This document shows positions 36,739 through 63,339 of a stretch of 64,000 bases of DNA, one piece after another; positions within the stretch are counted from its first letter, which is position 1; every line of letters begins with the position of its first letter. A program made the translations under genes and the position numbers. Below the pieces are notes generated by a model. It saw only the letters and a list, made by a program, of their open reading frames with translations. It did no database searches and was not told where the DNA came from. This DNA comes from Neocallimastix lanati (nom. inval.) (lineage: Eukaryota; Neocallimastigomycota; Neocallimastigomycetes; Neocallimastigales; Neocallimastigaceae): assembly GCA_016946835.1 (NCBI GenBank), contig JACVTC010000141.1, positions 416,388-480,387 on the forward strand. The letters are read 5' to 3'.

Positions 36739-39700
36739 TAGTTGTATTAAATTTTATAACATTTTTGAGATGCACTGGACGTTCTAATTTTAATTTCAAA
36801 TTAGGATCTTCTAAACTAACAGTATTAAATTGTTTCCTAATAACTTTATAGGGTCCGACAAAATAAGGTTCCAACTTATGTCTTGTAAAATTTTTGACTT
36901 TAACTAGATCTCCAACGTTTATTTCATTTTGTTTATTAAAACGAGTTTCTTGTTCTTTTCTTTGAGTCCAATATTGATTATTTTTCTTCAAATTTTCACA
37001 TGCATCTAAGACTCATTTGTGATGGTCGATAAATTTCTCAATTAATTGTTCTTCTTTGGATCCTAATACATTTGAAGTTGGTAGTGTAGTAGCAAGTTCA
37101 AATGGTTGTAAATCCTTTCGACCATAAAGTAATTCAAAGCTAGAATATTTCGTTACCGAATTTTTGGCAGTCCTTAAGGCCCAAAGAGCAGAAGGTAAAA
37201 TTAAGTCCCAATTTTCTTCTTTAGCTCCAAGAAGTCTTAATAACTTACCAATTTCTCTATTTCTGTTTTCAGTCAGACCATTAGATTCTGGATGATATGT
37301 TGTAATAAAACTGATATATACATCATATAAATCCAAAAATATTTTTGTATTATCAGCAGAGAATTGAGTACCATTATCCGTAGTTATCACACTTGGAGTA
37401 CCATGTCTAGCAAAAACTTTGGTTAAGAAATATACTACATCTTTTGCAGATACAGTTGCTGTGGGTTCTGCTTCAACCCATTTAGTGAAATAGTCTACAA
37501 TTACTATAATATACTGATTATTACGTTCAGTAATAGGCAGAGGACCTATTATATCTAATCCAAGATGCGTAAACGGCGCTTCCACTTGAGTCGCATATTT
37601 TTCTGTAGGGTCCGGTGTTTCGTTCTTTTTCTTTAACTGGCATGTTGTACATTATTTTAGAAATCTTCTTATATCATTCGTCATGCCCTTCCAATAACTT
37701 GTCCTCTTCAGTCTCTCATATGTTTTCTCAAATCCTTCATGGCCTATTGAGTGTGCTTTAAGAATTAAATTAAATTTATCTTCTTCTTTTTCTATGATTT
37801 TTCTATATTGACCGCTATCAATAATATATTTTTCTCCATTTTCTTCAACAATATTTTCCTCTAAAAACTTTTCCATAAATTCAGTTACATTTAATTTGGA
37901 TTGTTCCTCTTCATTCTCCATATTCACCGTGGATATTTTATAATTATAATTTTCATTAATTTTCTTTTGTTCTATATTATTAATGTATTCTAATATGTTA
38001 TTCCTTTGTTGGTAAAGTTTATCTTTATAATCCTTTAATTCAGGAGGAGTAACATCATTGTATTTATTTTTATTAAATTCTAATATATAAGATTCTATAT
38101 TATCCAGTTTATTATTCACATAATCTTGTACTATTTGTTTTAATCTATTCAACTGATTTATTTCTTTATTACATTTATTTACATTTATTTCAAATATATG
38201 TATTTTATGATTAATACGACTATATATTTTATCATTAACCTGTAATATATTATTAATTATATTATTTAATTCATTTGGACATATATTAATAGTAGTATTT
38301 AGTATATTAACATGGTTGTCTCCAATCGAAAAATTTTCGAAGTTTCCATTTTTCTTTTTAGGATCCTGAAAATTTTCTATATACCCATAATTTTCCCTCA
38401 TATTTTTATTTTTTGAAATTTTTGAAATTTTTGAAATTTTGTCTGAAAAATTTTTTTCTTTGATCGCAATATTCTTATCCTTTCTTGAATCACAGTCCAT
38501 CTTTTTAGATTCGTCTAATTCATTGATCTCTTCTATTTTGCTTTTTATATCTATATTATCTTTTAGGTCTTGTTCTATATTTTTATTTTTATTTTCTTCC
38601 ATTTGTCCTGGTTCAGTATTTATAATTTTATGAGCTGTTTTGTTTATATCCTCATTTAGTCTTTTAATTCTGGATAGAGCATCAGCTAAAGAATTCTTTT
38701 TCCCTGGTTCATATAAAATTTTTATCTTTAACATACTTATTAATATGCACCATCTAATATGACGCAAATTATTGGGTTCTTTGTTTTTAAATAATCCCAC
38801 CAGTGGTTTATGATCAGTGTATAATAAAGTTTCATACATGTTTCCAGAAATATAGGGTTTAAATTTTTCAGCGCAATAATATACAGCAGTGCCTTCTAGG
38901 TCTGTAGTGCTGTAGTTTCTCTCCGCCTTTGTTAGTGTCCTACTAACATAATGAATAGGATATTCCACTCCGTCATCTTCGTCCTTTTGTAATAGAACAC
39001 CTCCAATTCCTTCAGCGCACGCATCAGTTCGTATTATAAATTGTTTACTGTAGTCCGGGAATCTTAATATCGGAGCATTGATTAAAGCAGATTTTAAAAT
39101 ATCAAAAGCAGACTGTTGTTCTTCCCTCCAAAAGAAAGAACAATTTTTTTTTAAAAGAATTGTTAATGGAGCAGCTAACTTAGAAAAATTCGAAATGAAT
39201 TTTCTATAATAACCAACAGTACCGAGGAAAGAACGAACTTCATTGATATTACTAGGGCGATTCCAATTTTTAACAGCCTCTACCTTACTCTCCATTGTAG
39301 TTAAACCGTCTTTGGTAACCATATGGCCCAAAACTTCTACTTTTTCTTTAAAGAAGTGACATTTACCTATATTAAGTTTAACTTTGTGTTTCCTGAAGAT
39401 ACTAAAAACTTGCTCAAGGTGAATTAAGTGTTCTTCTTTACTTTTGGAAAATATTAAAATATCATCAAGAAAAACGAATACAGACTTTCCTAATAGTTCT
39501 ATAAGAATGGAATTCATTTCTCTTTGAAAAGTCGCTGGGGCTCCGGTGAGACCAAATGGCATGACTTTATATACGAAATTACCAAATTTTGTAGTGAAAC
39601 CTGTAATATCGATGGAATCCTCAGCCATTAAAATTTGATGATATCCTGAGAATAAATCTAGAGTGGAGAAAATAATTGCACCAGCCAGACTATCGAATAT

Positions 39701-41360
39701 TTCTTCTATATTTGGAAGCGAGTATACGTCTGGGACAGTTAAATCGTTAACTTTCCTGTAGTCACTACAAAGTCGCCATTTTCCGTTTTTCTTACGAGCT
39801 AGTACAATAGGTGAAGACCATGAAGATTTAGCAGGAGCAATTAAACCATTTTCCCAAAGTTTGAGAATTTCTTCTTTAACAATATCTGATTTAAACTTAT
39901 TTAATTTATAAAATTTACTTTTCACAGGTTTAGCTCCCTCCACTAGTTGTATATGATGAGGACCTAAATCTGAAAGTGTCAAATTTTCGGATGAAGTAGC
40001 AACTATATCTATATATGAATTTAATAGATTGACTATATCACTTTTACAATCTTCGTCTAAAGATAAAAGAAATTGTGGTGAATTTATGTATTCTTTAGGA
40101 CTTAAAATATCATTTTTCTTTGATGAATTTGATGTAGGAGTGAATTCATCATTATCACTTAATTCTTCAAGTCTAAAAGTATTAATCAATTTTTCGTGTC
40201 TTTTGCATCTAAGAAAACATATAATTATATCATCATCTTGTTCTACAATAAGAGGCGCAATAGTTTCAAAATTAGATTTATCTATGAATCGACAAAGAGT
40301 AGCACATAAGGGGTGGATAAATAAAGAATTTGAAAATATAGTTTTCAGACCAATTAACAAATCAAAGTACATAATATCATGTTCTACCACACAAAAATTA
40401 GCGGTAAAAGAAAAATTATTAATATGTAAAGTTAAACGAACAACTATTGCATCTGCCACAGTATTATCTCCTAAGGCTTCATAAATACGTCCACGACAGT
40501 AACCCACTTGTTCGTATTGACCTGGAAGACTATTTAAATAAGAGGTAGATACTAGATTTAAATTACTACCAGAATCAATAAGAAGTCTACCTGAAGTATT
40601 ATCAACCTTGCAACTGACTAGTCCAATATCCTCATCTTTAATAATTCCATCCTTATTAGGTGTTTTATTGGCCTCCTCCGAAAAATCTATGGAACTCATT
40701 AACTTAACTTTATCTGCTCGAAGGCTTTTGGTTAGGTCACTACGTGCTTTAGGAACCAAATCTAAAAGTTGTCCCATATTAATGTTACATTTGGTATTCG
40801 CAATGTCCTCAATTAAGTTATATGGTTTAATATTTAATTTTTGAACCATATTAATATGTTTTTCCACTCTAGTATTACCATGGGGAACATCAACAAACGT
40901 TACCTTTTTGCTTTGTGTAACCTTCTTTATATTTGTATTTAAATTTGAATCAGAAATCTTTTGATGGTCACCTGACATTTCATTTGATATAATTTCGGAG
41001 TTAGAATTTATTTTGTTTATTTCCATAATATTATCATTATTATTTTTAGCATTTGAAATGTTTATTGAAGGCGCGTTTTTATTATTATTATTTATAAACA
41101 CTGAATTTTTATAGACACTATCGGAACTTTTAATATAATTTTGATTATTATTTTTATTAATTTCTTTATGGTCTTTTACAGAATTCAAATTATTATTATC
41201 TATTTCCTTTAATAAGTTAGGAGAAGATGGTCTACTATTTAATTTTTTGTTTGAAATTTCTTCTTGATCTTCTAAGGGAAGTCTTTTTCTTTTGGTAGCA
41301 TCTACAACAAATGTTCGAGCGTTTTGATTAACGAGAGGTCGCGAACTCTCATTTAAAAGT
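36739..41360 (-). pseudogene. gypsy-1 Pol (PR, RT, RNase H, IN), with two nonsense codons
   Basis: The frame is -1 to gag and open from the slip site. It encodes an Asn/Lys-rich leader, protease (L-L-I-D-S-G-S-N-L), RT (A-P-A-T-F-Q-R-E-M-N and catalytic F-L-D-D-I-L-I-F-S), RNase H (R-T-D-A-C-A-E-G-I-G, T-D-H-K-P-L-V-G-L-F) and integrase (V-D-Y-F-T-K-W-V-E-A-E-P, T-T-D-N-G-T-Q-F, N-G-L-T-E-N-R-N-R-E, then G-P-Y). A TAA at 37652-37654 interrupts the integrase zinc finger. A TGA at 37013-37015 replaces a Trp conserved in gypsy-2. Between RNase H and IN, about 215 extra charged, probably coiled-coil residues (about 37880-38640) are present that gypsy-2 lacks. The final codons are displaced by copia-2. 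No chromodomain is seen. Confidence 0.93.
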
Positions 41361-41365
41361 TTAAA
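41313..41365 (-). promoter_or_regulatory. gypsy-1 gag-pol -1 frameshift signal
   Basis: On the minus strand, T-TTA-AAC (41359-41365) lies in the gag frame, one codon before the stop. After a 7-nt spacer comes the stem TGAGAG (41346-41351), the loop TTCGCGAC, and CTCTCG (41332-41337). Fourteen bases on, CGAAC (41313-41317) can pair with loop TTCG, giving a possible H-type pseudoknot. The layout is identical to gypsy-2. Confidence 0.88.
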
Positions 41366-42162
41366 GAATCCTTTTTATTTTGATCTAATTTTTCTACTAA
41401 CTCTTTATATCTTAAATATTCTTGTCTAATGAATTCAGGACATTCAGCTTTAAAATGTCCAGAATCTCCACAACAATAACAAGCATTAACTTTAATTTTT
41501 GGTTTAGTCTCCAATGGATTCGTAGAAAAATTTTTTGTTTTATATTGACTATTAAAATTTTTCTGATTATTAGGGTTAGGGTTAGATTTTCTTTTTACTT
41601 CCATTTTTTGTTTATTTTTAATAACAAAATCTTCATGTCTTTCGGCAATTTCCATGGCTTTTGGAATTTCCATTTTTCCAGCTAACCAGACACCTTTATA
41701 CGCTTGATGTTTATATTCAATAGAGTTCAAGTAGTCTTTATAAGTAATAGCTAATTTTTCTGAAATGGATAATTTGTTATAAAGATCTAAATATTTTAAA
41801 TTAAATTCCTTGAGATTATCATCGACTGAAATTTTCATGTCTTTAAGCTGGTCAATGATATCTTCCGGCGATACGTCCATATTGTATGCTTTCAGAATAT
41901 GTTCTTTCATTTGTTCTAAACTTGGATAAGAAATTTCTGTGTCACTGACTCTGATAATATTGTCTGTGATACTCCTGAGACCTTTACCTTGCACAGTCAT
42001 AGCACAGTATCTATAAAGCTCTTCACCTTTAGATATTTTATGCATATCTTTGAAGGCTTTCATTTGAATATACCACGTCTCGACGTCATGGTTTTCGTCA
42101 TTGATGTGGATGATGTTTTGAAGCATGCTAGATAGCATGTTCATTTTTATAAATTCTTCCAT
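41353..42162 (-). CDS. gypsy-1 Gag
   Basis: A 269-residue Gag with a capsid-like helical region of Ty3/gypsy type (E-T-W-Y-I-Q-M-K-A-F near residue 30, D-N-L-K-E-F-N-L-K-Y near 120) and the C-terminal knuckle C-Y-C-C-G-D-S-G-H-F-K-A-E-C. It ends S-L-N-F-stop, the S-L-N codons being the slippery site. The first in-frame ATG lies about 180 bases from the LTR. The homologous gypsy-2 Gag is longer because of an acidic insert. Confidence 0.92.
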   Translation of the reverse strand: MEEFIKMNMLSSMLQNIIHINDENHDVETWYIQMKAFKDMHKISKGEELYRYCAMTVQGKGLRSITDNIIRVSDTEISYPSLEQMKEHILKAYNMDVSPEDIIDQLKDMKISVDDNLKEFNLKYLDLYNKLSISEKLAITYKDYLNSIEYKHQAYKGVWLAGKMEIPKAMEIAERHEDFVIKNKQKMEVKRKSNPNPNNQKNFNSQYKTKNFSTNPLETKPKIKVNACYCCGDSGHFKAECPEFIRQEYLRYKELVEKLDQNKKDSLNF

Positions 42163-42206
42163 TTTAACTTATAATTAATATTCTTAAACTTCAATTTCTT
42201 CAAAAA

Positions 42207-42243: not shown

Positions 42244-42324
42244 ATTAAATCAATAACCAATTATTTCTATAAAATCAAAAAAAAATAATATTCTTTATTT
42301 TAATATATCCTTCCTCCTCAAAAA

Positions 42325-42342
42325 GAACCGATATCGCCACCA
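42325..42342 (-). promoter_or_regulatory. gypsy-1 primer-binding site
   Basis: On the minus strand, TGGTGGCGATATCGGTTC starts two bases after the 5' LTR. The TGG start, complementary to a tRNA CCA end, fits a tRNA 3'-end primer; the tRNA is not identified. Confidence 0.78.
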
Positions 42343-42344
42343 AT

Positions 42345-42796: not shown

Positions 42797-42867
42797 CATA
42801 TAACTGCCTCAAAATTTGATATATCACGTGAAAAATTGGCATTTTGGAACCTTTGATGATATTAATA

Positions 42868-43439: not shown

Positions 43440-43448
43440 ATATTAATA

Positions 43449-44282: not shown

Positions 44283-45443
44283 ATGTTTTTACTAGCTGTT
44301 ATATATATTGCATTTATTGGATTGGGACTTCCCGATTCTATATTTGGGACGGTTTGGCCTGCTATTTATAAAGAATGGAATCTTCCAATATCTTTAGGAA
44401 GCTTTATAATTACAATAGTATATTGTGGAACAATGGTTTCAAGTTTGATGAGTGCTAAGGTTATAAAACGATTTGGTACTGGAAATGTCACTGCATTTAG
44501 TACGGCATTAACAACAGTATCCATTCTTGCATTTTCTTATTCAAAAAATTTTTTGATGTTATGCCTGTGCGCTATTCCGCTTGGTCTTGGTGCTGGTTCT
44601 ATAGATACGGCTTTGAATAATTATGTCTCCATTAATTATAAAGCTCATCATATAAATTTTTTGCATTCATTTTATGGGGTAGGCGTAGTAGCAAGTCCAT
44701 ATATTTTTTCTTCCGTATTAAAAAAAGAAGGAGGTTGGAGAAAAGGTTATTTGATTGTGTGTATCATTCTTGCGGTAATTACCATCATTCTTTTTACAAC
44801 TCTATTTTTATGGAAAAAGAAAGAAAGTAAATTAACGGAAGAAGACATTGAAGATCTTCCCATCAAAAAAATTGTAAAAATTAAAGGTGTATTAACCTTA
44901 TTGGTTTTATTCGTTGGTTCATGTGCTATTGAAGTATCTAGTGGTAGTTATGGTAGTACTTATCTAGTGGAAACGAAAAATATTGCTGACGAAACTGCTG
45001 CAAGTATAATCATATTTTATTACCTTGGTATTGCTTTAGGAAGATTTATTTCTGGATTAATAGCCCACAAATTAGGTTCTAAAAAAATAATATTTCTTGG
45101 TGAGCTTATTTTAGGTGCAGGAATTTTATTTATTATATTTTCAAAATCATTAATTCTTGCTGGACTGGGATTATCATTAATAGGATTTGGGAATGGTCCA
45201 CTTTTTCCTAATTTTAGTTTTATCACCCCGATTATCTATGGAGAAACCAGTTCTCCCTCCATTATCGGTATGGAAATGGCTATTAGTAGTTTAACTTTTA
45301 TGATTGTTCCAATTCTCTGTGGTTTATTAGGACAACTTATTGGAATGATCGTATTTCCATTTTATATAAGTATTTTCTATATCCTTCTGATAAGTTTTAC
45401 TTTTATTGTCAATAAACAATTGTTTGTACCCAATGGCATTTAA
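44283..45443 (+). CDS. MFS transporter, bacterial type (right copy)
   Basis: The 386-residue product reads the same as that of 26059-27219, in opposite orientation, so the two genes diverge outward from the palindrome centre. The flanking upstream and downstream DNA is duplicated as well, so both copies have the same promoter region. Absence of any visible difference suggests recent duplication or gene conversion between the arms. The reasons for calling bacterial origin are those of the left copy. Confidence 0.9.
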   Translation: MFLLAVIYIAFIGLGLPDSIFGTVWPAIYKEWNLPISLGSFIITIVYCGTMVSSLMSAKVIKRFGTGNVTAFSTALTTVSILAFSYSKNFLMLCLCAIPLGLGAGSIDTALNNYVSINYKAHHINFLHSFYGVGVVASPYIFSSVLKKEGGWRKGYLIVCIILAVITIILFTTLFLWKKKESKLTEEDIEDLPIKKIVKIKGVLTLLVLFVGSCAIEVSSGSYGSTYLVETKNIADETAASIIIFYYLGIALGRFISGLIAHKLGSKKIIFLGELILGAGILFIIFSKSLILAGLGLSLIGFGNGPLFPNFSFITPIIYGETSSPSIIGMEMAISSLTFMIVPILCGLLGQLIGMIVFPFYISIFYILLISFTFIVNKQLFVPNGI

Positions 45444-45655
45444 TCAGTATATTCTTATAAAATATATATGATAATAAAAATATAATTTTTAGATATATAG
45501 AAACAAAGGAAAATAATAAAAATAAAAATATTTACAAAAAAAAAAAAAAAAAAAAAAAAAGGAAACTTAAAAAATACTATGTTAATAACAATTTAACAAA
45601 CTGGTTAATACCCAAATAAAAAAAAATTGATCATTATCCTATCAAAAAAAAAAAT

Positions 45656-45985
45656 AAATATAAAAATAAAAATAAAAATAAAAATAAAAATAAAAATAAA
45701 AATAAAAATAAAAATAAAAATAAAAATAAAAATAAAAATAAAAATAAAAATAAAAATAAAAATAAAAATAAAAATAAAAATAAAAATAAAAATAAAAATA
45801 AAAATAAAAATAAAAATAAAAATAAAAATAAAAATAAAAATAAAAATAAAAATAAAAATAAAAATAAAAATAAAAATAAAAATAAAAATAAAAATAAAAA
45901 TAAAAATAAAAATAAAAATAAAAATAAAAATAAAAATAAAAATAAAAATAAAAATAAAAATAAAAATAAAAATAAAAATTAAAAA
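45656..45985. repeat. (TAAAAA)n hexanucleotide satellite (right copy)
   Basis: About 54 units; the complement of 25515-25855, with a slightly different length. Confidence 0.97.
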
Positions 45986-46223
45986 TTAAAAATTTAAACT
46001 TAAAAAGTAATGTTTTTAATTTAAAAAATTTTTTCATTTTCATTTTTATTATTATTACTTGAAATATTAATAAAGAATAACCATATCTATTCAATTAAAA
46101 AATGAATAATCTTTTGTTAATTGCCTTTTTTTTTTTTTTTTTTTTTTTTTTGGATATGTTCAATTTCTAATATTTTTACATTGAAAATCATTCAATGTGA
46201 AGAGAAGTTCTTTTTTTCTTTTT

Positions 46224-46259
<36 letters not shown>

Positions 46260-46779
46260 TTAGTCTAATAATAGTTCCAAGGAATTCATTTTTACAAGAA
46301 ATGAAATATATAAAATTGTAATTTTTAAAATTTTAATATTTTTATAATCTCATATAAATATTTAAAAGTAAAAATTTAAAAGTAAAAATTTAAAAGTAAA
46401 AATTTAAAAGTAAAAATTAAAAATTAAAAATTAAAAATAAAATTATGTAAAATAATAATAAACAAATATTATATATATTTATTATAGAAATAAAAAAATA
46501 ATTAAAATAAAAAATAAATTATAGTATATTATATATAAATATCAATTTTTAGATTAATGATGCAATAGTCAAATGAAAAAAAAAAAAAAAAAAAAATAAA
46601 CTGATAAATTATTATCTTTATTTATATATAATAAATAAAGTAATTCTTTATTTATATTATTTTATTTTTTTTTTTCTTTGTTAATTGCTTTTATTTATAT
46701 ATATAATATTTGTGATATATTTTAATAAATAATGTTCTATATCATAATTTCTATAATATAGTGATGGCTTACCATCTTT
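45986..46779. other. AT-rich non-coding stretch (right copy)
   Basis: Mirror of 24729-25514; no gene is seen. Confidence 0.5.
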
Positions 46780-47841
46780 TTATACTTTATTTTTATCTGC
46801 TCCATGTTCCACCATGTATTTTACTAAATCTTTGTTTCTACTTTTATATGCTTTAAATAATGGTATTTCACCATTCCAATTTTCTTTATTTATATCTGTT
46901 CCATGTTCCACCAAGTATTCTACTAAATCTTTATTTCTACTATTTATATCTGCTTTATATTTCAGCAAGATATTTACTAAATATATATTTCCAATTCCAC
47001 ATGCTCTAAATAATGGTGTTTCACCATCTTTATCTTCTTTATTTATATCTGCTCCATGTTCCACCAAATATTGTACTAAATCTTTATTTCCACTTTCACA
47101 TGCATAAAATAAAGGTGTTTCTCTAAACATATTATCTTTATTTATATCTACTCCATGCTCTACCAAGTATTCTACTAAATCTTTATTTCCACTTTTAAAG
47201 ACATAAAATAATGGTGCTTCATTAGTATAGTTATTTTCTTTATTTATATCTGCTCCACGTTCTACCAAGCACTTTACTAAATCTTTATTTCCACTAAGGA
47301 ATGCTATAAACAATGGTGTTTCACCATCTTTATTTTCTTTATTTATTTCTGCTCCATGTTCCACCAAATATTGTACTAAATCTTTATTTCCACTTTTTAC
47401 ATGCATAAAATAAAGGTGTTTCTCTAAACATATTATCTTTATTTATATCTACTCCATGCTCAACTAAATAATATATTAAATTTTTATTCATATTTTCAAT
47501 TTTATAAGTATCCCTGTTAAAAAGAATATGTTTTTTTACATAATTTATTATTATTTTATATTTATCTTCAGAGATCTCTTGATTTAATTTTTCAGTAGAA
47601 ATAGAAGATTTTATTTTTATATAGAAAAAGTAACCATTTAATAAAATCATTATCATAAATCTTAAAAATAATTTTTAATAAAACCATTTCATTCTTTTCA
47701 ATTAATAATTTTATTAAAGAAGAAGATATATATAAATCATTATGATTTTTATTTATTAGAATTTCTAATACTCTAGGTGTAAGTTTTTTTTTCATTATAT
47801 TTTTCCAATAATTTATCTTTCTTATTTATACTGTTATTCAT
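46780..47841 (-). pseudogene. Ankyrin-repeat protein pseudogene (right copy)
   Basis: It carries the same three frame breaks as the left copy, so the breaks predate the duplication, were homogenised, or reflect a shared A-run miscall. About six ankyrin-like units lie at 46780-47400. Confidence 0.82.
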
Positions 47842-47870
47842 ATTTATTTTATTTTCTACTATGACTTTTT

Positions 47871-47907
<37 letters not shown>

Positions 47908-48189
47908 TTATTTTTTTTTATTTATTTTTATTTTGTTTTATTATTAATTTTTCGTTAATTTTTATTTTATTAATAAATAAAAATATGTATAAATAATAAA
48001 TGTTATAGATATTCTTTAAAATATTTTAATTATACATATGTATAAAAAATAAGACTAAAAATAGAATAAAAAAAAAAAAAAGAAAAAAGAAAAAATTTTT
48101 TTTCTTTATATATTTAATTTAATAATAATTAAAAATTTAATTAAATATTAAATTTATTAAAAAAATTTTAAAGGTTGGACATAAAAAAT

Positions 48190-49308
48190 TAAATTTAAAA
48201 TAATCTCTCAGTAAAGAGACCAGGATCCTCAGTAAAAAAGGAAATAAATAAAAAATCTTATACAAGTAATGAAGTATTAAGTATTCAATTGGAAGTTCCA
48301 TTAAGCTTCAATAAGTGTCTAGATGCAATATATGATGAATTAAAAAGTTTATATGATAATCATATTTTTATGACTTTTGTTATTGACTTAACCAATAGTA
48401 AAATACCAATTAAAGTAAAATGGATATTTAATATCAAAAGAGATAGTAATAATAATAAAATTAAAATCAAAGAAAGGCTTGAAGCAAAAAGCTACAGTCA
48501 AATTATAGGTCTCGATTACGAGTTAACTTTCTTACTAACATTAAGTATCGACAATATTAAACTTATAATTTCTCTAGCAGCGACATTTCATTGGGTCATT
48601 TATTAATTAGATATAAAGGTTGCCTATTTAATTACAGATTTAAACAAAAATATTTATTACTATACCGCAAAAGATATAAAAAGGGTTTCTGGAAATTAAA
48701 CAAAACTTTATATGGCTTGAGATAATCAGGCTGGTAATGACAAACTTTCTTATTAGTATTGGGTTCATCAATTAATATTTGAACCATGTATATTTAAAAA
48801 GGTAAGAAATAATAAAGTCCATTTGCATCATTGATATTTATATAGATAAAATGATTATTATAGGTATAAACCCGAAAATGAAAGAAACAATTGCAAAAAT
48901 AAAACAGTTTAAAAACATAATTATAAACACTTCATTCCTCAGTTTAATTAGTTAGAAAACATACTCTCTACTATGGAAGCTGAAAACATTAATACTTCTG
49001 AATGTGTTAAGAAAACATTATGGATAAGAAATATTTGATTCGAATTATTTGATTCGAATTATTTGATTTTAATAAATCAATAAGAATATTCACTGACAAT
49101 ATTTCAAGAAAAACGACAACTGAAAATAGACAATATTAAAAATTAAAACATATAAATATAAAATTCTATTTTAGTAAGGATCATATTAAAAATAAAGAAT
49201 TATATTAAATACATAAACGCTGAAAATATGCTTTCTAATGCTTTGACTAAAAATATTAATGGACCAAAGATAACAAAATTCTCAAATTATGTTTGTGAAT
49301 TTTGTTAG
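48190..49308 (+). pseudogene. Degenerate Ty1/copia RT-RNase H fragment (right copy)
   Basis: Mirror of 22201-23319. The readable RT piece is 48289-48606; the RNase H end A-L-T-K-N lies near 49240 and the last stop at 49306-49308. Confidence 0.8.
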
Positions 49309-49868
49309 CTAAAAAATTAAAAATTTAATAAATTTATTATTTTTTTTATTCATTTAAAATTTTTTTCTGTTGTTTTTATATATTAAAACAATTAAAATAT
49401 ATATATGTATTTTTAATTTTTATAAATATTTATTTAATTATTTTTAAATAAAACAAAAAAAAATTTTTTTATATTATTCAACATATAATTGTTCAATTTA
49501 TTTTACCATTATTTTTATTTTTTATAATATCAAAATACCTATAAATATGTTATATTAAAAAATAATAATAATAATAATTATTTTAAGAAAATAATTTTTT
49601 TTATTTAATTTTATATAATACTATTAATTAAGGTTTAGTATTATTTATGTTTATTTTATTAATCTTACCTGAGTCAAGTCAATAGTCCATTAAATAATTT
49701 TTTAATTGTTCAAGCTTTTTATTGTATATTTTTCTCATTATATATTATCTTATTTTAAATGATATTTTTATTAATATTAATATATTCACTTACCTTTTAT
49801 ATGCATGTAGATATATTCTACTAAAGCAATCTTTCTGACTAATATAAAATTACAAAGTGAGCTAGTAT

Positions 49869-50099
49869 GTATATCATTAGGTTAGGTTATACTGGCCTCG
49901 CTTCAAAGGGAATTATAGAACTTGAGAGGCATTCTAAGAAAATTCTCAGTAATAATATGCATGTCAGAGAGCCAATACTGAACACTCAGTAAGGCCGTCC
50001 AGCAGGGACAATATCTGTCTATGTGAAAGCATACCAAAGTGTTGTGACTACTTCAATATTCCCATGCCTTGAGGGAGACCAAAGGGATACGCACTGAAA
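49869..50099. other. Unidentified G+C-richer island (right copy)
   Basis: Mirror of 21410-21640, with no difference noticed. Confidence 0.5.
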
Positions 50100-54009: not shown

Positions 54010-55237
54010 TAATCATTAATACAATTTTTAATCTGGAATTTTCCAAAGAAATAATTAATATTGATAAGTTTAATATTAATAAAAGAATTATTGATAAGAT
54101 TTTGATAAACTATTAAGAAAATTGATAAAATAAACTATATAATATTGATAAGGATTTTAATAATAATAAAATATAGATAAGAATAATAAAAGTAGTATAG
54201 ATAAGGAATTAATATTAAATACACTTTTTTAAATAGTATAATTTAATTTGTACTAATTAGGAATATAGATGAATTTATTAGAATATAGAAAGTTCCAAAA
54301 GAATAAAGAATCAAATAATTTATTTAAGGGTTAAATAAATCATTTAAGATGAATAACCAAAAGAACATTATTTGGGCATTCTTTATCATAGATGGTACAA
54401 GATCTGAAGATTTTATTAATAAAATAATATATTCTAATAATAAGGAAAAATTTAAAATATTATTCTCTAATTCTAAACCTAAATTAATTAATAAACTACT
54501 CTAATTTTAGTCTAAACTATCCTAATCTAAAAGAATCTAAACTAAGTTAAAATAACTTAAACTAATATCTTAATCTAAACTATTCTAATCTAAACTAAAC
54601 AATTTCTCTAAATCTATTACTATTTCTATAAAATGTTTAATACAACTAATCTATTACTAAACTAATTTTATACTATACTTATCTTAATATTATACACTAA
54701 ACACAAAAAACTATTAATTAAACACTTTTAAAACATTAAATTTAGAAAAACTATTTAATAAATTTTAATTTATTTTAAACTATTTAATTTATTATTTAAC
54801 TTTTAGAAAATATTAAAAAAATAATATAATAATAAAGTCGTTAGAAAAAAAGGGAGAGAACAAAAGTATTGTGTTACTTTGTTCTTTTTTATACTAATAA
54901 AATATTTATTTGATTGGATTAAAAATAAAAATAAAAAAATTAATAATAAAAATTTAATAATAAAAATTTAATAATAAAAATATAGTAATAAAAATATAAT
55001 AAGCTTAAATTTTCTAAATTATTAAAATATTATATAAAAATTTTACAATATTAAATAATATAATTAATACATGATTTTTTAATACATCTAATTATTTTTA
55101 TTTAACTTTATAATATTCTATAACTAATATTTTAATATTCAATTTTTTATTATTTATTTATAATTGTTAATGATATTTTTTACTTTAATATTTTCTTTAA
55201 ATAGTTTAATTTTTCTTTATTTAATTGTACCGTAACA
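53510..55237 (+). repeat. Possible LTR of element X
   Basis: The right end, CCGTAACA (55230-55237), is followed by TAGAGT and, after removal of gypsy-2, by a primer-site-like TGGTAGACTCGGGG. A start at TGTTAG (53510) would give ends TGTTA/TAACA and a 1.7-kb LTR. No second copy is in the window, so the start is a guess. The stretch includes a 54-bp T run (53948-54007) and a 51-codon ORF at about 54349 of unknown meaning. Confidence 0.4.
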
Positions 55238-55243
55238 TAGAGT

Positions 55244-55546
55244 TGTTAAGGTTTTAGAGAATTAAATAAAAATAAAGTAAAGAAACACAAATTTTATTTA
55301 TTTATTTATTTTATTTATTTATTTTATTAAATTTATTTGATTTTATTTGATGATATTTAAAAATTAGTAGCAAAATTTACAACTATTTATACTTTTTTCA
55401 AGGCATAAAAGTTGTTCTTGCCACTAAATTACATTTTATTTATTTTTTTTTATAAAAACTATTAAATTTAAATTGATTTTTATAATTAATTATATAAAAT
55501 TTAATTATAACAATATAAATAAAATACATTTATAATATTAATAAAA

Positions 55547-55594
<48 letters not shown>

Positions 55595-56087
55595 TTATTT
55601 AAAAATATCTAAAATATTACTAATAAGAATTTATTTAATTGGCTATAATTTTTATTACAATCTGTTAAAATATTCAAATAAAAATAAAAATACTATTCTA
55701 ATATAAAGGTTTTTAATAAAATAAAATATTTTTCAATATAAAATAAAACATTTCGATATAAAATTTTATAATAAAAAGTTAAAATATAATATATAAATTT
55801 TTAATTATCAATATATAAAAATATTATTAATATAAATTTTCATTATTAATATAAAAAAAAATAAGATTTATTATTAATATTGCTAATATAAGTTTTAAAT
55901 ATATAAAAATATTACTATTAATATAAGATTTAATATAAAAATATAAAGTTTAATATAATTTTTGATTTAATTTTTGATCTTTGGATTTAAAAATTTATTA
56001 AAGTACAAAAATAATAATGTACACATAATGTATTAGAAATAAATCGTAGATTTAATTAAGAATGCATTATTTAGTACATTCTTATCA
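55244..56087 (-). repeat. gypsy-2 3' LTR
   Basis: 844 bp, matching 62483-63339. The G-rich CGGGGCATCT on the minus strand next to it is a weak polypurine tract. Confidence 0.95.
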
Positions 56088-56105: not shown

Positions 56106-59100
56106 TCAAGCTTCTCTGTAAGCGGAGTTAAACTTTACTAAATTTTTAAAGTGAACATTCCTATCGAGTTGCTTTCCAGTCTTCTGATCGATTAGGGTTG
56201 CCGTGTTGAATTGAATTTTTAAAATTTTAAATGGTCCATTGTAATATGGTTCTAGCTTAGTGCGGCTAAAGTTTCTAACAAGAACAAGATCACCAGCCTT
56301 TAATTCTTTTCCTTTTTTCATACTTATTTGTTCTTCTCGTCTTGTTGCCCAATACTTGTTAGCATTCTTCACATTTTCGCATGCTTCTCTAGTCCATTGA
56401 TAATGACGAACAAATTTTTCCATTAAAATTTCATCATATGATTTACCTGCATTTTCAATTGTTCTTATGGCTATATCATAAGGCTGTTGGTCTTCTCTTC
56501 CATATACTAATTCAAAACTAGAATGTCCAGTAGCTGTATTTTTGGTAGTTCGAAGTGCCCATAAAGCAGAAGGTAAAACTTCATCCCAATCTTGATTTTT
56601 CCTTCCTAATAAACGGAGTAATTTTCCAATTTCTTTATTTCGATTTTCAGTAAGGCCATTTGATTCAGGGTGGTAAGTAGCTACAAATTTAACATATACA
56701 TCATAAAGATCAAGAAAGATTTTAGTCATATCAGAAGTGAATTGGACTCCATTATCAGTAGTAATAACTTGAGGTACACCATGTCTTGCAAAAACGTTTA
56801 TTAAAAATTTAATTATATCAGAGGAAGTTATGTTTTCAGTGGGTTCGGCTTCAACCCATTTGGTAAAGTAATCAACAGTTACTATAATATATTGATTATT
56901 ATTTCTTGTTTTTGGTAACGGTCCTATAATATCTAATCCTAAATGCACAAAGGGACCCTCCACTTTAGTTGGATGGTTTTCGGTTGGTTCTGGATATGGT
57001 TGAGGACGATTTAACTGGCATTTTTCACAATTACTAACTATTCTTTTGATATCTTTAATCATATGATTCCAATAAAAGTTTTTCTTAAGTCTTTGATATG
57101 TTTTGTAATATCCTTCGTGGCCAATATTATGAGCTTCTAAAATTAATTTAAACCTTTCATTTTCGTCCGTTATTAGTTTTCTATAATTTCCATTGTCGAT
57201 AAAGTAATCTTCACCATCAATAACAGTAAACTTTTCATTAATAAATTCCTTTATAACCTTAGATAATAATTCTTCATTATTTCCATTAGTAATTTTTGTT
57301 AATAATATCTTTCTCTCTTCCTTACTTTTCATTCTTGAAAGAGCATCAGCTAACACATTCTTTTTGCCTGATTCATATTTTATATTAATTCCAAGCATAC
57401 TAGCGGTTAGACACCATCTTGTTTGCCTTGCATTCAAAGGTTCTTTATTCTTAAATAAACCAACTAATGGTTTATGATCTGTGTAAATAGTTGTAGGTAA
57501 TGGATTTCCTTCAATATAAGATTTAAATTTAGTCATACAGTAAAACAAAGCGGTTCCTTCCAAATCGGTAATACCATAATTCTTTTCAGCTTTCTTTAAA
57601 CTTCTACTTATAAAGTGTATTGGATGCTCCTTACCGGTTTCTTCTTCTTTTTGTAAAAGAACTCCACCAATTCCATTATACGAAGCATCAGTTCTAATGA
57701 TAAAAGGTTTGTCAAATGACGGAAATTTTAGAATAGGTGCATTGATTAATTTTTCTTTTAGGAGTTCAAAGCTTTCTTGTTGTTCTTTATTCCATTCATA
57801 TTTAGTATTATTTTTCAATAATTTACATAAAGGTGAGGTAATTTGAGCATATTTAGGAATAAAGTCACGATAATATCCTATTGCTCCTAGAAATGATCTT
57901 AATTCATGAATTGATGAAGGGGCTTCCCACTTCTTAATAGCTGTTATTTTACTTTCCATGGGACTTAATCCTTTAGTAGTAAGTTTGTGACCTAATACAT
58001 CAACTTCAGTTTGAAGAAAATGGCACTTTTCAATATTAATTTTTAACTTGTTTTCTTTAAATACTTCTAATACTTGTTTAATATGAATTAAATGTTCTTC
58101 GATACTTTTTGAATAGATCAAAACATCATCAATAAATACGTAAACAAATTCACCAATAAAAGGGAATAAAATTTTATTCATTTCTCTTTGGAAGGTTGAG
58201 GGAGCTCCAGTAAGTCCAAAAGGCATAACCTTAAATTGATAATTTCCAAACTTAGTAGTGAAAGTGGTTACTTCAACGCTTTCTTCATCCATTAAGATTT
58301 GGTGAAAACCAGAAAATAAATCAAGAGTTGTAAATATTTTAGCTCCTCCGAGACTATCAAAAATTTCATCTATATATGGAACTGAATAAGAATCTTTTTC
58401 TGTCATATCATTGACTTTTCGGTAGTCAATGCACAAGCGCCACTTTCCATTGTGTTTTAGAATAAGTACTACTGGAGATGACCATTCTGAACAGGATGGT
58501 TCTATCAATCCTTTCTTAATAAGTTTTGTAAGTTCTTCTTTTAAGATATCTGATTTTAATTTAGTTAACCTATAACTTCTTAATTTTACTGGCTTTGAAT
58601 TTGCTTTTAAACGGATCTTATGTGGTGAAAGTTTAGAAGGAGTTAGTTCTTCTGTTGAAGTGGCAACTATGTCAATCATTTCTTTGAGAATTTTAATAAT
58701 TTGTTCTTTATAATCTTTATTTAAGGTACTTAAAAATTCATCACTCTCAATAAATTCCATTGGAGTTAATTCCTTTATAATTTCCTTTTCATTATTCGTT
58801 TCTTTAACTTTTCTAATAGTGCAAATTATACTTTCTTCATCATAATATTGATTATTTATTTTAGCTATTTCTTCGTATTCACTTTCTGACAAAAGTTTAC
58901 ATAAACTGTTTAAGGTCGGATGAATAAATAAACAATGATCGATTTGAGTTTTAAAGTTTATTAACATATCATAAAATGAGTCTTCTTTCTCAATAATTCT
59001 AAAGTCCGCATTAAATTCATAATTATTAATTTTTACTGATAATCGAACAATAATTCCTTCCGAGTATTCTTCATCTTGTGTTGCTAGTTGGATTCTTCCA

Positions 59101-59495
59101 CGACTTTTTCCAACTGTTTCATATTCACCAGGTAATTTATCAAAATACTGCTTAGTAACGATGCTTAGGTTACTACAAGAATCAATTAAAAGTTTTCCTA
59201 GTACTCCGTCAACACTTGCATCAATCATTGCTAAGTCTTCTTCGGCTACTTCATTACTTTTACTTATGTAGCTATGATCATAGTTATTCACTAATAAAGT
59301 TCGTGCTATTACATTGTCTACAGTTCCAATTATTTTAGATTTTTCTAACTTTAAACCTTGAGTTAATTGTGAACGAATTTTCGGACATGCATTCAAGAGT
59401 TGACCTATCGTAATACTGGATTTAAGATTATTTAAATCATCCATAATATTGTAAGGTTCTTTATTATTCATCATTTTGATATTCCTTTTTACTAA
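56106..59495 (-). CDS. gypsy-2 Pol: protease, RT, RNase H, integrase
   Basis: The stretch downstream of the TAG starts at 59495; the first ATG (59474) gives 1122 residues, to which numbering refers. Protease is at residues 96-103, where the active-site triplet reads D-S-C and not D-S-G. RT is about 290-490, with catalytic F-I-D-D at 447-450. RNase H is about 590-705 (T-D-A-S 595-598, T-D-H-K-P-L). Integrase has zinc residues H782, H786, C816 and C819 and the catalytic triad D848, D907 and E943 with D-35-E spacing, then a G-P-F module near 1080. No chromodomain follows; the end lies 19 bp from the 3' LTR. This is the best preserved gypsy Pol here, although the DSC protease is suspect. Confidence 0.94.
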   Translation of the reverse strand, partial: LVKRNIKMMNNKEPYNIMDDLNNLKSSITIGQLLNACPKIRSQLTQGLKLEKSKIIGTVDNVIARTLLVNNYDHSYISKSNEVAEEDLAMIDASVDGVLGKLLIDSCSNLSIVTKQYFDKLPGEYETVGKSRGRIQLATQDEEYSEGIIVRLSVKINNYEFNADFRIIEKEDSFYDMLINFKTQIDHCLFIHPTLNSLCKLLSESEYEEIAKINNQYYDEESIICTIRKVKETNNEKEIIKELTPMEFIESDEFLSTLNKDYKEQIIKILKEMIDIVATSTEELTPSKLSPHKIRLKANSKPVKLRSYRLTKLKSDILKEELTKLIKKGLIEPSCSEWSSPVVLILKHNGKWRLCIDYRKVNDMTEKDSYSVPYIDEIFDSLGGAKIFTTLDLFSGFHQILMDEESVEVTTFTTKFGNYQFKVMPFGLTGAPSTFQREMNKILFPFIGEFVYVFIDDVLIYSKSIEEHLIHIKQVLEVFKENKLKINIEKCHFLQTEVDVLGHKLTTKGLSPMESKITAIKKWEAPSSIHELRSFLGAIGYYRDFIPKYAQITSPLCKLLKNNTKYEWNKEQQESFELLKEKLINAPILKFPSFDKPFIIRTDASYNGIGGVLLQKEEETGKEHPIHFISRSLKKAEKNYGITDLEGTALFYCMTKFKSYIEGNPLPTTIYTDHKPLVGLFKNKEPLNARQTRWCLTASMLGINIKYESGKKNVLADALSRMKSKEERKILLTKITNGNNEELLSKVIKEFINEKFTVIDGEDYFIDNGNYRKLITDENERFKLILEAHNIGHEGYYKTYQRLKKNFYWNHMIKDIKRIVSNCEKCQLNRPQPYPEPTENHPTKVEGPFVHLGLDIIGPLPKTRNNNQYIIVTVDYFTKWVEAEPTENITSSDIIKFLINVFARHGVPQVITTDNGVQFTSDMTKIFLDLYDVYVKFVATYHPESNGLTENRNKEIGKLLRLLGRKNQDWDEVLPSALWALRTTKNTATGHSSFELVYGREDQQPYDIAIRTIENAGKSYDEILMEKFVRHYQWTREACENVKNANKYWATRREEQISMKKGKELKAGDLVLVRNFSRTKLEPYYNGPFKILKIQFNTATLIDQKTGKQLDRNVHFKNLVKFNSAYREA

Positions 59496-60116
59496 CTAAG
59501 TATTTTCATTATTAGTTTCTTTAGTTTTTGTTGAAATTAATTTTTCCAAAGTATTAGTTTTATTTTGTTGATTATCTTTATTCATTTCTATATCTTCTAT
59601 TTCATTATCGATTACAAGTATATCTTCAGATTCAACTTTTTTCTTTCCTTTTGATGAATAATTGTTGTTTTCTTCTTTACTTTCTCTTACTCTTGTTATA
59701 TTTCTTAATTCCTTTTCTTTTTGTTTTTCTTTGTTAATATTTGGTTGAGTTAAAATTGAAGGAAGTATTTGATTTTTATAAACTTTATTTGGTTTATTAT
59801 GTAGCTCATTTTCTTTCTTCTTTCTTAAAGCAGGAGTTGCGAAAGGACGTGGATTATCTTTTAAACTTTTATGTACTTTCTTGGAATTATTTTCTTCTTT
59901 TTCGCTGTTATTATCATTCATTTTTCTTTTTATAGCATTTATAATGATATCATCCTCACTTTCAGTTGTGTCACTAAAATCAGATTCTTCAGATTCTTCG
60001 TTAAAGGAATTATTATCAATTGGAGTATTCTTAGTAAAAGTATTATTTTGTAAATTATTTAATGAAGCTATTGTTTTGTCATTGGGAGTGCTTCTGCTCC
60101 CATTTAGAAGTTTAAA
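59496..60116 (-). CDS. gypsy-2 Pol N-terminal linker, from the frameshift site to an in-frame TAG
   Basis: After the -1 shift the frame reads L-L-N-G-S-R-S-T-P-N-D-K and continues, open, through an acidic Ser/Glu stretch and a Lys/Asn/Glu-rich linker to TAG 59496-59498. Pol resumes in the same frame. Gypsy-1 has a continuous equivalent linker, so the TAG is either a single nonsense change or a second leaky stop. The ATG at 59921 is not needed. Confidence 0.8.
   Translation of the reverse strand, partial: FKLLNGSRSTPNDKTIASLNNLQNNTFTKNTPIDNNSFNEESEESDFSDTTESEDDIIINAIKRKMNDNNSEKEENNSKKVHKSLKDNPRPFATPALRKKKENELHNKPNKVYKNQILPSILTQPNINKEKQKEKELRNITRVRESKEENNNYSSKGKKKVESEDILVIDNEIEDIEMNKDNQQNKTNTLEKLISTKTKETNNENT
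60064..60116 (-). promoter_or_regulatory. gypsy-2 gag-pol -1 frameshift signal
   Basis: On the minus strand, T-TTA-AAC (60110-60116) is in the gag frame, one codon before TAA (60104-60106). A 7-nt spacer precedes the stem TGGGAG (60097-60102), loop CAGAAGCA, and CTCCCA (60083-60088). After 14 bases GCTTC (60064-60068) is complementary to loop GAAGC, an H-type pseudoknot. UUUAAAC is a canonical -1 slippery heptamer. Confidence 0.9.
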
Positions 60117-61015
60117 GACTTTTTGGAATATATTTCTTTTTTATTTTTTTCCATAATTTTATTTAATTGAGGGCAATAGTATGAGTAATGACCTTCTTCC
60201 TTACAGAAGAAGCAAGTTTTAACAGATAAATTTCTCATTTTCTGGGTTGATTCTTCTATAATATCTTGAGGTTTCAGTTTATTATTTGTTTGACTTGTTT
60301 GGAAAGTTTCGTTTCTTCTTTTAGGATAAAGTCTTGAAGTAGTACTGTTTTGATTATTTTGATTATGTTGGGAATTATTAACATTATAGGTATTAATATT
60401 ATTGTTCCTTACAGAAAGTCTATCTACTTTCTCGGCAATTTTGAAAGCTTTCTCCATACTTATATCATCTTTAAGGGATAATTTCTTCCAGGCTTCATAA
60501 TTATTTTGAATAGAATCAATATAATCTAGTACACCAATGCGCTTTCTTCTCTTTTTATCAAGTTTAGTGTACAAAGTTCTATATCTTACATTAAAGTCTT
60601 TAATCTTTTCGTTTCTTTTAATTCGCATTGCACGAAGTTCTTTAAGAAGTAAATTTTGGTCTTCTTTAATACCGTAAAAATTTTCAAGACTTGAAATAAT
60701 TTTTCCAAGAGAAGGAAATTTAATATCATCATCAACATTTTCTTCTTCATCATCTTCTTCTTCTTCATCTGATGAATCATCACTTTCATCATCACTATCT
60801 TCTCCCAAATCTTCAATAACGCGTTGTACTTCACCAGAGCTGGTAAGTAAACAAGCATTAAATATTGTTTCTGGATCTGTAATACCTTGTATCTTGATCC
60901 AAAGTTTTAATTCAGTAGCCCAGGACTTAATATCTAAATTGTCCTTGCTAAGTTTCACAATATCTCTTAATTCTTTTTTCAATTCTTTAAAGCTCAAAGT
61001 TGTTTCCTTGGACAT
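60104..61015 (-). CDS. gypsy-2 Gag
   Basis: The start chosen is ATG 61013-61015 (M-S-K-E-T-T-L-S-F), since the upstream in-frame residues look like leader. Capsid-like helices are followed by an acidic tract of about 30 Asp/Glu/Ser residues (around 60700-60800). A second helical block (M-R-I-K-R-N-E-K-I-K-D-F-N-V-R-Y) matches gypsy-1, and the knuckle C-F-F-C-K-E-E-G-H-Y-S-Y-Y-C is near the end. It ends S-L-N-F-stop at the slippery site, as in gypsy-1. Confidence 0.92.
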   Translation of the reverse strand: MSKETTLSFKELKKELRDIVKLSKDNLDIKSWATELKLWIKIQGITDPETIFNACLLTSSGEVQRVIEDLGEDSDDESDDSSDEEEEDDEEENVDDDIKFPSLGKIISSLENFYGIKEDQNLLLKELRAMRIKRNEKIKDFNVRYRTLYTKLDKKRRKRIGVLDYIDSIQNNYEAWKKLSLKDDISMEKAFKIAEKVDRLSVRNNNINTYNVNNSQHNQNNQNSTTSRLYPKRRNETFQTSQTNNKLKPQDIIEESTQKMRNLSVKTCFFCKEEGHYSYYCPQLNKIMEKNKKEIYSKKSLNF

Positions 61016-62459
61016 TTTGTTTAAATATTTCTTGTTGTATATTAATGAGGTGATTAAATAAGAATAAATTTGGAAATACAACTTTAAAAATATAATTTAA
61101 TAGGTAATTTAATATCGAATCAATTTTTAAAACAATATATTTTAGTAACTTTTGAAAATAATAATTTTATTTGCTTTCTTTAGTAGATATAAGCTCGAAA
61201 TCCTTATCGACAACTTAGTAGAAATTATAAAGCACGAGGTTCTTTTCGACTACTTTATTAAGAATAATTTTTAAGTTCGAAATCTTTATCGACAACTCAA
61301 TAGAATAATTTTTAAGTTCGAAATCTTTATCGACAACTCAATGGAATAATTTTAAGTTCGAAATCTTTATCGACAACTTAATAGAATAATTTTAAGTTCG
61401 AAATCTTTATCGACAACTTAATAGAATATTTTTCAAGCTCGAAATCTTTATCGACCACTTGAATTTTGTAATTTAGTATATTTGTAGTAATAAATTTAGA
61501 AGCAAAGTTTTATTTATTATTTTCACCTTTCAAAAATTTTTCTTTTTAAACGATAAATATTGTATTGTTATAGCTAATAAAATTATTAATTAATTATAAT
61601 TATTAAACACAAAAAATAATCTTTATTGTCGTACAATCTGATAGTACACACTGTCTGACGTGCAGCTTACCTAATGGTGTCATGCCACGCGTGTGCCACG
61701 ATTACTATATTCAATATAAAATATAGCAGTTCAGAGCCTACTAGCCCAATTACTATGTAGGATAAACTTAATCCGATAATCTATGTACGGAATAAAAAAA
61801 ATTTTAAAAGTATTCAATAATATTTTTATTAACTAATAAAAATTAACTAAAAACACAATATTTTCAAAGTAAATTAAGATTCTTTTACAGGAATTATTAA
61901 ACAAATAAAGTATCAGTAATAAAAAAAAATAAAAAAAATTTAAATGGCGAAGTTAGTCAAAGTCTGATACTTTATATAATAAAGTGCCTTATAACTAGCA
62001 CAAAGAAAAATAAAAAAAATATAAAAAAAAACAATCTTACGCCTTCGGTGACGTAAGCTCCTTATTCGCCAGTGCTTGGAAAGTACCCGCACCTTCGTGT
62101 GTTGAAACGTTGAAGGCTGAACTATTATTACCGGGTCGGTAACCAAATACCTTCGTCTACTTTCCAATTAATTCCCAAAATAACTATTATCCAATAACCT
62201 ACTATGAATAATAGATATTTTGTTGTTTTCTGGAAATACACTGTGTATGAGCTCTATCCGCTCCTTGTTATAATTTACAATCTTTTTTTTTTTTTAGAAT
62301 CTTAATTTTACTTATTTAAAAAAATTTTTTTTTTATATATATATCAAACAAGCGCCATAGGTTAATCAAAGGATTAACGACTTACTTGTTTATCAATATA
62401 AAATAAAAAAAAAAAAATTAAAAAAAATCTATGTTATTTACTATTATTTCTATTTAATT
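61016..62459 (-). other. gypsy-2 leader: tandem repeats and G+C-rich structured segments
   Basis: 1.4 kb lie between primer site and gag. About 61272-61460 holds five ~40-bp tandem units containing TTCGAAATCTTTATCGAC, with degenerate units from 61190. About 61625-61790 and 62038-62160 are clearly G+C-richer. The second has three CGAAGG motifs and short hairpins such as ACCG/CGGT. No convincing ORF is present; a packaging or dimerisation role is possible. Confidence 0.7.
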
Positions 62460-62476
62460 CCCCGATATCTTCACCA
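62460..62476 (-). promoter_or_regulatory. gypsy-2 primer-binding site
   Basis: On the minus strand, TGGTGAAGATATCGGGG lies six bases after the 5' LTR; it shares GATATCGG with the gypsy-1 site at the same distance from TGG. The tRNA is not identified. Confidence 0.78.
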
Positions 62477-62482
62477 TATAAA

Positions 62483-62795
62483 TGTTAAGGTTTTAGAGAA
62501 TTAAATAAAAATAAAGTAAAGAAACACAAATTTTATTTATTTATTTATTTATTTATTTTATTTATTTATTTTATTAAATTTATTTGATTTTATTTGATGA
62601 TATTTAAAAATTAGTAGCAAAATTTACAACTATTTATACTTTTTTTAAGGCATAAAAGTTGTTCTTGCCACTAAATTACATTTTATTTATTTTTTTTTTT
62701 ATAAAAACTATTAAATTTAAATTGATTTTTATAATTAATTATATAAAATTTAATTATAACAATATAAATAAAATACATTTATAATATTAATAAAA

Positions 62796-62846
<51 letters not shown>

Positions 62847-63339
62847 TTATTTAAAAATATCTAAAATATTACTAATAAGAATTTATTTAATTGGCTATAA
62901 TTTTTATTACAATCTGTTAAAATATTCAAATAAAAATAAAAATACTATTCTAATATAAAGGTTTTTAATAAAATAAAATATTTTTCAATATAAAATAAAA
63001 CATTTCGATATAAAATTTTATAATAAAAAGTTAAAATATAATATATAAATTTTTAATTATCAATATATAAAAATATTATTAATATAAATTTTCATTATTA
63101 ATATAAAAAAAAATAAGATTTATTATTAATATTGCTAATATAAGTTTTAAATATATAAAAATATTACTATTAATATAAGATTTAATATAAAAATATAAAG
63201 TTTAATATAATTTTTGATTTAATTTTTGATCTTTGGATTTAAAAATTTATTAAAGTACAAAAATAATAATGTACACATAATGTATTAGAAATAAATCGTA
63301 GATTTAATTAAGAATGCATTATTTAGTACATTCTTATCA
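62483..63339 (-). repeat. gypsy-2 5' LTR
   Basis: 857 bp; compared with the 3' LTR the visible changes are an extra ATTT unit and longer T runs. Confidence 0.95.

Follow-up and report, generated by a model that had tools for sequence, protein, structure and literature searches.

Putative programmed -1 frameshift signals with family-specific stimulators at the gag-pol junctions of Ty3/gypsy elements in an anaerobic gut fungus

We propose that Ty3/gypsy elements of the anaerobic gut fungus Neocallimastix lanati carry a genuine programmed -1 frameshift signal that sets the ratio of Gag to Gag-Pol, with stimulators that differ from family to family; judged from sequence, the probability of this reading is about 0.9. 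The window, meaning the whole stretch of DNA that was analysed, comprises 64,000 nucleotides (GC about 20%) of a 199 Mb genome and holds two such elements, gypsy-1 and gypsy-2. Most ribosomes would read the slippery heptamer T_TTA_AAC through and terminate zero to one codons further on, yielding Gag. In a minority, the leading edge would meet a GC-rich stem while tRNAs occupy UUA and AAC; these tRNAs would slip back by one base to UUU AAA and the ribosome would enter pol. We infer the shift, and its rate, from the anatomy of the junction and from established knowledge of -1 frameshifting, which together make simultaneous slippage of two tRNAs the natural account; readthrough is rejected, since it gives no access to the -1 frame. 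The loop of the hairpin would pair with a downstream strand in family E, and probably also in gypsy-2 and family F, giving a compact H-type pseudoknot with the dimensions of betaretroviral ones. For gypsy-1 and class B the evidence extends to a hairpin and no further, and clade D would combine A_AAA_AAC with a 7-bp tetraloop hairpin.

What does such a set of junctions offer? It adds a family of -1 frameshift signals to the anaerobic gut fungi; among the matches listed from the open-licence PubMed Central literature, none deals with gag-pol frameshifting in these fungi by title or abstract. Since the families share stem 1 and differ in stem 2, and others fuse gag and pol, one genome provides ready-made natural variants, which bear on what a stimulator requires and on the gain, rebuilding and loss of recoding.

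Anatomy of the gag-pol junctions

By their RT, RNase H and integrase, gypsy-1 and gypsy-2 are ordinary Ty3/gypsy elements, with RT-RNase H ahead of integrase and a zinc knuckle in gag. An earlier note on this DNA had described them as divergent, as sharing one minus-strand layout base for base, and as having pol open in the -1 frame. All of this is borne out: the pol products are 51% identical across 748 aligned positions and the gag products 24%, direct reading of the letters gives the same layout in both, and both junctions have an open pol in the -1 frame, with a later pol stop in each window copy (Table 1). The heptamer has the form X_XXY_YYZ in the upstream frame, as expected of a -1 frameshift signal, and the gag stop follows one codon after it in both elements; in gypsy-1 the spacer reads TTTTAAA, with the stop at 41355-41353. 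A predicted stimulatory structure begins after 7 nt, or 8 where the first pair is open. The 8-nt loop is CAGAAGCA in gypsy-2, whose linker is ATGACAAAACAATA, and TTCGCGAC in gypsy-1, where the second stem arm and a 14-nt linker follow. Neither of the window stems stands out in its folding energy (z -1.67 and -1.12).

Table 1. Features of the two Ty3/gypsy elements and their gag-pol junctions, in window coordinates
Feature	Position	Strand	Remarks
gypsy-2 slippery heptamer T_TTA_AAC, gag frame	60110..60116	-	sequence and genome-wide patterns
gypsy-2 7-nt spacer TTCTAAA	60103..60109	-	contains gag stop TAA 60106-60104
gypsy-2 stem 1, 5' arm TGGGAG	60097..60102	-	
gypsy-2 stem 1, 3' arm CTCCCA	60083..60088	-	
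gypsy-2 putative stem 2, 5' arm GAAGC	60090..60094	-	within 8-nt loop
gypsy-2 14-nt A-rich linker	60069..60082	-	would cross stem 1
gypsy-2 putative stem 2, 3' arm GCTTC	60064..60068	-	complementary to loop GAAGC
gypsy-2 gag ORF	60104..61096	-	330 aa, zinc knuckle C-x2-C-x4-H-x4-C, stop TAA 60106-60104
gypsy-2 pol, -1 frame	56106..60140	-	RT, RNase H, integrase; broken in window copy by stop 59498-59496
gypsy-2 LTR, element's 3' side	55236..55831	-	partner 62475-63083
gypsy-1 slippery heptamer T_TTA_AAC, gag frame	41359..41365	-	sequence
gypsy-1 stem 1, 5' arm TGAGAG	41346..41351	-	
gypsy-1 stem 1, 3' arm CTCTCG	41332..41337	-	
gypsy-1 proposed stem 2, 3' arm CGAA	41314..41317	-	4 bp only, p 0.31, without statistical support
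gypsy-1 gag ORF	41353..42168	-	271 aa, zinc knuckle
gypsy-1 pol, -1 frame	37652..41374	-	RT, RNase H, start of integrase; stop 37654-37652

The LTR pair of gypsy-2 consists of three blocks that are 97-98% identical and one repeat-rich block at 90%; for gypsy-1, no LTRs of at least 90 nt were found in 35500-44200. The gypsy-2 pol stop lies at offset +618 and is most simply a private lesion of the window copy, since pol stays open beyond that point in 14 of 15 rows of the same family. The gypsy-1 pol stop falls outside the stretch compared among rows, and past it integrase resumes at 37013-37651. The protease active-site motif is D-S-C in the gypsy-2 window copy and in P0001-P0003, and D-S-G in gypsy-1. 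The closest named relatives are Orpsp1_1, which we take to be Orpinomyces, Neocallimastix lanati and Anaeromyces robustus.

Pairing and codon use at the predicted stimulators

The module recurs throughout the genome. Slip site, spacer and 5' arm (TTTAAACN7TGRGAG) gave 665 matches against 6 for the reversed pattern, and slip site, 21 nt and 3' arm (TTTAAACN21CTCCCA) gave 678 against 9; in the 100 places listed for the latter, where the 5' arm was free to vary, 98 have GGGAG, one AGGAG and one an unrelated sequence. Pattern matches are not all junctions, three loci (L002, L051, L064) having no hairpin. In the gypsy-1 family, 15 of 17 places also match slip site plus TGAGAG. Family G has TTTAAAT in place of TTTAAAC with stem and loop position unchanged in 8 of 10 fetched relatives at 65-77% identity (L125-L128, L130, L134-L136); the site is altered in L129 and missing from L131.

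The earlier note had called for a covariation test and had pointed to a compensatory change between TGGGAG/CTCCCA and TGAGAG/CTCTCG. The change is real, a G-C to A-U replacement at pair 3 in gypsy-1, and a version of the test run on relatives from the same genome, judged by shuffles, slid pairs, strand swaps and codon use, gave a score above shuffles but few independent events. In 27 rows, 95.1% of cells are paired over the six pairs of stem 1, a figure inflated by the way the rows were selected: the search patterns kept one arm constant, and a filter required 4/5 core pairs. The covariation score is 0.418 versus 0.171 (sd 0.029) for shuffles and at most 0.142 for slid versions. Both sides change at 5 of the 6 pairs; the number of further pair types (7) was equalled by 113 of 500 shuffles and is not unusual, and pair 1 is open in 7 of the 27 rows. 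These rows were drawn from 50 distinct hairpins listed with at least 4/5 core pairs. The 23 omitted comprise 7 chance matches, 8 near-duplicates and 8 family members in which a core pair is broken (L003, L039, L055, L060, L062, L070, L123, L136), so that half of the omitted family members (8/16) have a broken pair; one further locus, L045, failed the filter with two.

Apart from gypsy-1, stem 1 is changed in family E (U-A to A-U at pair 1), in clade D (three pairs) and in 7 rows of class B (G-C to G-U). Clade D may have a separate origin, and without it the compensatory events number two (gypsy-1 and E). Stem 1 covaries, with a modest number of independent events. When more families were sought that combine an altered third pair with a loop of 8 nt, 30 matches came up against 9 in the control, none of them adding a compensatory family at this pair: 15 belong to the gypsy-1 family (14 intact, one with another core pair broken), 9 to one unrelated repeat, and the 6 singletons look like chance.

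Stem 2 was assessed in the same number of rows, 27, by matching the loop against the downstream strand, with shuffled downstream sequence as control. The p values are 0.022 for gypsy-2 (family A1), 0.017 for A2, 0.079 for A3, 0.001 for E, 0.007 for F, 0.071 for F2 and 0.137 for G; in gypsy-1 the value in Table 1 belongs to the best helix open to the loop, which differs from the proposed CGAA helix. Four rows, two of them of one family, fall below 0.05, and E alone survives correction for 27 rows. The earlier claim that loop and distal strands stay complementary in both elements is thus fairly supported for gypsy-2, short of that correction, and is not supported for gypsy-1. The broader claim, that retained structure with changed sequence argues for selection, is supported except for its gypsy-1 stem 2 part. 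The gypsy-2 pseudoknot gains support from families beyond the earlier note; the gypsy-1 pseudoknot gains none.

It is possible, though on balance we find it unlikely, that all families rely on a plain hairpin as stimulator and that matches between loop and downstream sequence reflect coincidence or coding constraint, with no pseudoknot at all. The hairpin folds on its own, and stem 2 is missing from class B (none of 14 rows below p 0.25) and clade D (none of 5 below 0.35) and not above chance in gypsy-1. Gypsy-2 and F fail the correction. In a matrix of swapped strands, A1, E and F each match their own partner best, but some chance combinations between other families come to -8.5 and -8.3 kcal/mol, close to the -8.8 of gypsy-2. 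The peptide I-A-S is common to A, F and G where the 3' arm of stem 2 lies, with synonymously differing codons, so this strand is also constrained by coding; the family F helix sits on these codons in another register, and the F copy with the low p value is decayed, with a pol stop at +102 and a displaced gag stop. Against a hairpin throughout stands family E, whose predicted stem 2 has 7 bp in an H-type arrangement and keeps both arms in 19 of 20 fetched copies, most of them nearly identical. Moreover, A, E and F have three unrelated complementary helices in the same place. With the register set by hand for each family, A1, E and F pair at all loop positions 3-7 (15/15), whereas exchanged strands pair at 6-11 of 15, and no one of the five pairs is identical in all three. 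The case for a predicted pseudoknot that would form on the mRNA is good in family E and fair in gypsy-2 and family F.

Codon use gives a cleaner argument for stem 1 than covariation does, and it bears on the idea that the stem is kept for a pol N-terminal peptide, N-G-S/R-x-x-T/S-P, with RNA pairing as a by-product. The G and T/S-P residues do recur across many families. However, GGG is the stem codon in all 8 representatives that were retrieved without it as a search requirement (A2, A3, F, L024 and L036 through the 3' arm; E, F2 and G through similarity), whereas it accounts for 2 of 98 Gly codons in the rest of the two pols. These counts cannot be multiplied as independent probabilities because the representatives share ancestry. 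In class B the second arginine is AGG in 14 of 14 rows versus 13 of 90 in the background, and gypsy-1 has E-S in place of G-S with pairing retained. We therefore regard the peptide account as very improbable beside selection on the RNA stem. A count of GGG in 21 of 21 GGGAG-type representatives was set aside as support, most of these having been found by a pattern that demands GGG.

Gag termini and reading frames

No relatives from outside the genome were found at the DNA level among viral contigs or in the whole-genome set, so that DNA-level covariation is confined to one genome and the outside evidence is at the protein level. A gag reading frame that ends in T_TTA_AAC gives a Gag ending in L-N plus zero to one residue or so, and the residue before L needs a codon ending in T. 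In other datasets, 64 gag relatives were recovered, 48 with a zinc knuckle, and 44 of these 48 end in LN or LNx against a background of about 1-2%; relatedness overstates the independence of this count, identities in this first set reaching down to 34% with a median of 52%. Two relatives without a recognised knuckle have the same ending, and four with one lack it (P0138, P0143, P0151, P0162). The residues ahead of LN are S, R, H, P, N and Y; K, E, Q, M and W occur in 0 of 46, compared with 34% in the 30 residues before. These 46 (among P0121-P0184) end only in LN, LNH, LNQ, LNY or LNF, which makes the base after the slip site a pyrimidine.

Among clade D gag relatives, 56 of 72 end in KN, and the knuckle was found by pattern in none. 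The preceding residues are S, T, A and P; none of the 56 comes from the eight amino acids without an NNA codon, whose background is 60%. Of the 16 misses, four terminate where expected but in KK (P0237), NN (P0242) or RN (P0248 and P0251), and several others look truncated.

The conserved termini also bear on whether pol might be made by reinitiation coupled to the gag stop, with no slipping. Gypsy-2 and gypsy-1 do have an ATG directly after that stop (TAAATG), but it is in the gag frame rather than the pol frame, which disfavours this route, and it is missing from A2, A3 and E; with the slip heptamer conserved at the protein level elsewhere, reinitiation seems to us slightly less probable even than the peptide account. 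That the split is decay or an assembly artefact has a negligible probability: both window copies have a later pol stop, and pol stops occur within about 1.5 kb in 13 of 47 rows with intact hairpins (from fetched loci, three places counted twice), but the same split with frames intact over that length is seen in 34 of the 47 and in several RT lineages, and the gag stop is at the identical place in 46 of the 47.

Other junctions and known systems

Clade D emerged from loci picked by their RNase H, independently of the motif. In it, A_AAA_AAC and an immediate gag stop precede GGACTTC-NNNN-GRAGTCC, a predicted 7-bp tetraloop hairpin stimulator. The full pattern of A_AAA_AAC, 7 nt and hairpin gave 183 matches against 0 in the control. 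One locus, L077, has A_AAA_AAC with a different stem, by eye TGAACA/TGTTCA, and a longer loop. Across 20 RNase-H-anchored loci, a slip site lies at the gag/pol overlap in 9 (L077, L079, L081, L083, L084, L088-L091), six of which are copies of one family; the zinc knuckle is in frame with protease in 6 (L080, L085, L092, L093, L095, L096), and 5 were not judged (L078, L082, L086, L087, L094). Eight integrase-anchored loci were fetched, 7 of which have a gag-like N-terminus opening the frame and no overlapping upstream gag, L103 being truncated; they are a contrast to the frameshift module and not support for it. For an RT tree 15 stretches were fetched; those of A2, B_L001, B_L005, B_L057 and E missed the RT and were dropped. 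In this tree of 12 sequences, the four with A_AAA_AAC lie nearer to a pair of single-ORF families, at 62-73% identity, than to the gypsy-1/2 clade, at 38-51% identity, and the support for grouping the four is only 75. Frameshifting would either have arisen more than once or have been lost by fusion.

How do these junctions compare with known systems? The gag-pro pseudoknots of SRV-1, MPMV, SMRV and MMTV, as tabulated in PMC3835772, have a spacer of 7, S1 of 5-6, S2 of 6-7, L1 of 1, L2 of 8-14 and L3 of 0 or 1. Families E and F fit these ranges (spacer 7, S1 6, S2 7, L1 1, L2 11, L3 0); the corresponding values for gypsy-2 are 7, 6, 5, 2, 14 and 1, and it would carry one unpaired junction A, as MMTV does in the same source. 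The betaretroviral slip sites are GGGAAAC or AAAAAAC at gag-pro, whereas here a putative UUUAAAC slip site lies at gag-pol in a fungal host. According to PMC5175198, minor-groove triples made by the loop that crosses stem 1 are important for shifting in SRV-1, and by analogy the A-rich linker here could form similar triples. Coronaviruses and arteriviruses use the same UUUAAAC heptamer, but their class differs in S1, which has 11-14 bp in 13 of 15 UUUAAAC rows in PMC3835772 and 5 bp in two, compared with 5-6 bp here.

PMC5009743 counts A_AAA_AAC and U_UUA_AAC with the heptamers most prone to shifting on mammalian ribosomes. It also describes a 2003 survey of LTR elements, in which many animal elements have heptamers and a pol in -1 and fungal elements are discussed. 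Our elements share with those of animals and fungi a pol in -1 and a tandem heptamer near the gag end. The section of that source on LTR retrotransposons names no anaerobic fungi, and here several families with different stimulators occur in one genome. PEG10, treated there too, is alike in its Ty3/gypsy origin and its frameshifting with a pseudoknot, but is a domesticated single mammalian gene rather than a multicopy element.

In class B (L005, L007, L057, L059 and others) the loop contains GG in 14 of 14 rows, and 13 of the 14 have ACC as a downstream codon; no stem 2 is recognisable. The nearly invariant CC sits about nine bases past the stem, and a two-pair contact between it and the invariant loop GG is possible. 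We tentatively suggest, while considering it doubtful, that the gag-pol solutions in this genome form a natural series comprising fused single ORFs, hairpins without a pseudoknot, compact pseudoknots whose three stem 2 helices are unrelated, and the minimal GG/CC contact of class B. With stem 1 as an unchanging chassis, pseudoknots might have been built anew repeatedly and have converged on betaretroviral dimensions; class B might be a new, extremely small stimulator.

The window also contains a copia element on the plus strand (30447-36433), in which gag (30447-31532) is overlapped in the -1 frame by pol (from 31520). At the junction (31520-31580) the sequence is G GAT TTT TAG, which recalls the slip sites of some plant RNA viruses, and a 10-bp stem, CGGCAGTGTA/TATACTGCCG, begins 7 nt on; its folding energy is -13.8 kcal/mol (z -2.1), and 5 of 200 shuffles did as well. 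Relatives L160-L162 (78-83% identity) keep GGATTTT, in which L160 seems to be one T short, and their predicted folds differ; the more distant L163-L167 have no such slip site. This junction is a candidate second -1 frameshift module. Finally, the window harbours a large inverted duplication (about 21509-28062 and 43440-50000), its outer edge limited by the region searched and its arms about 15 kb apart. The four longest arm pairs are 96-100% complementary, an MFS transporter gene is present in both arms together with an ankyrin-repeat ORF, and gypsy-1 and a copia element lie between the arms.
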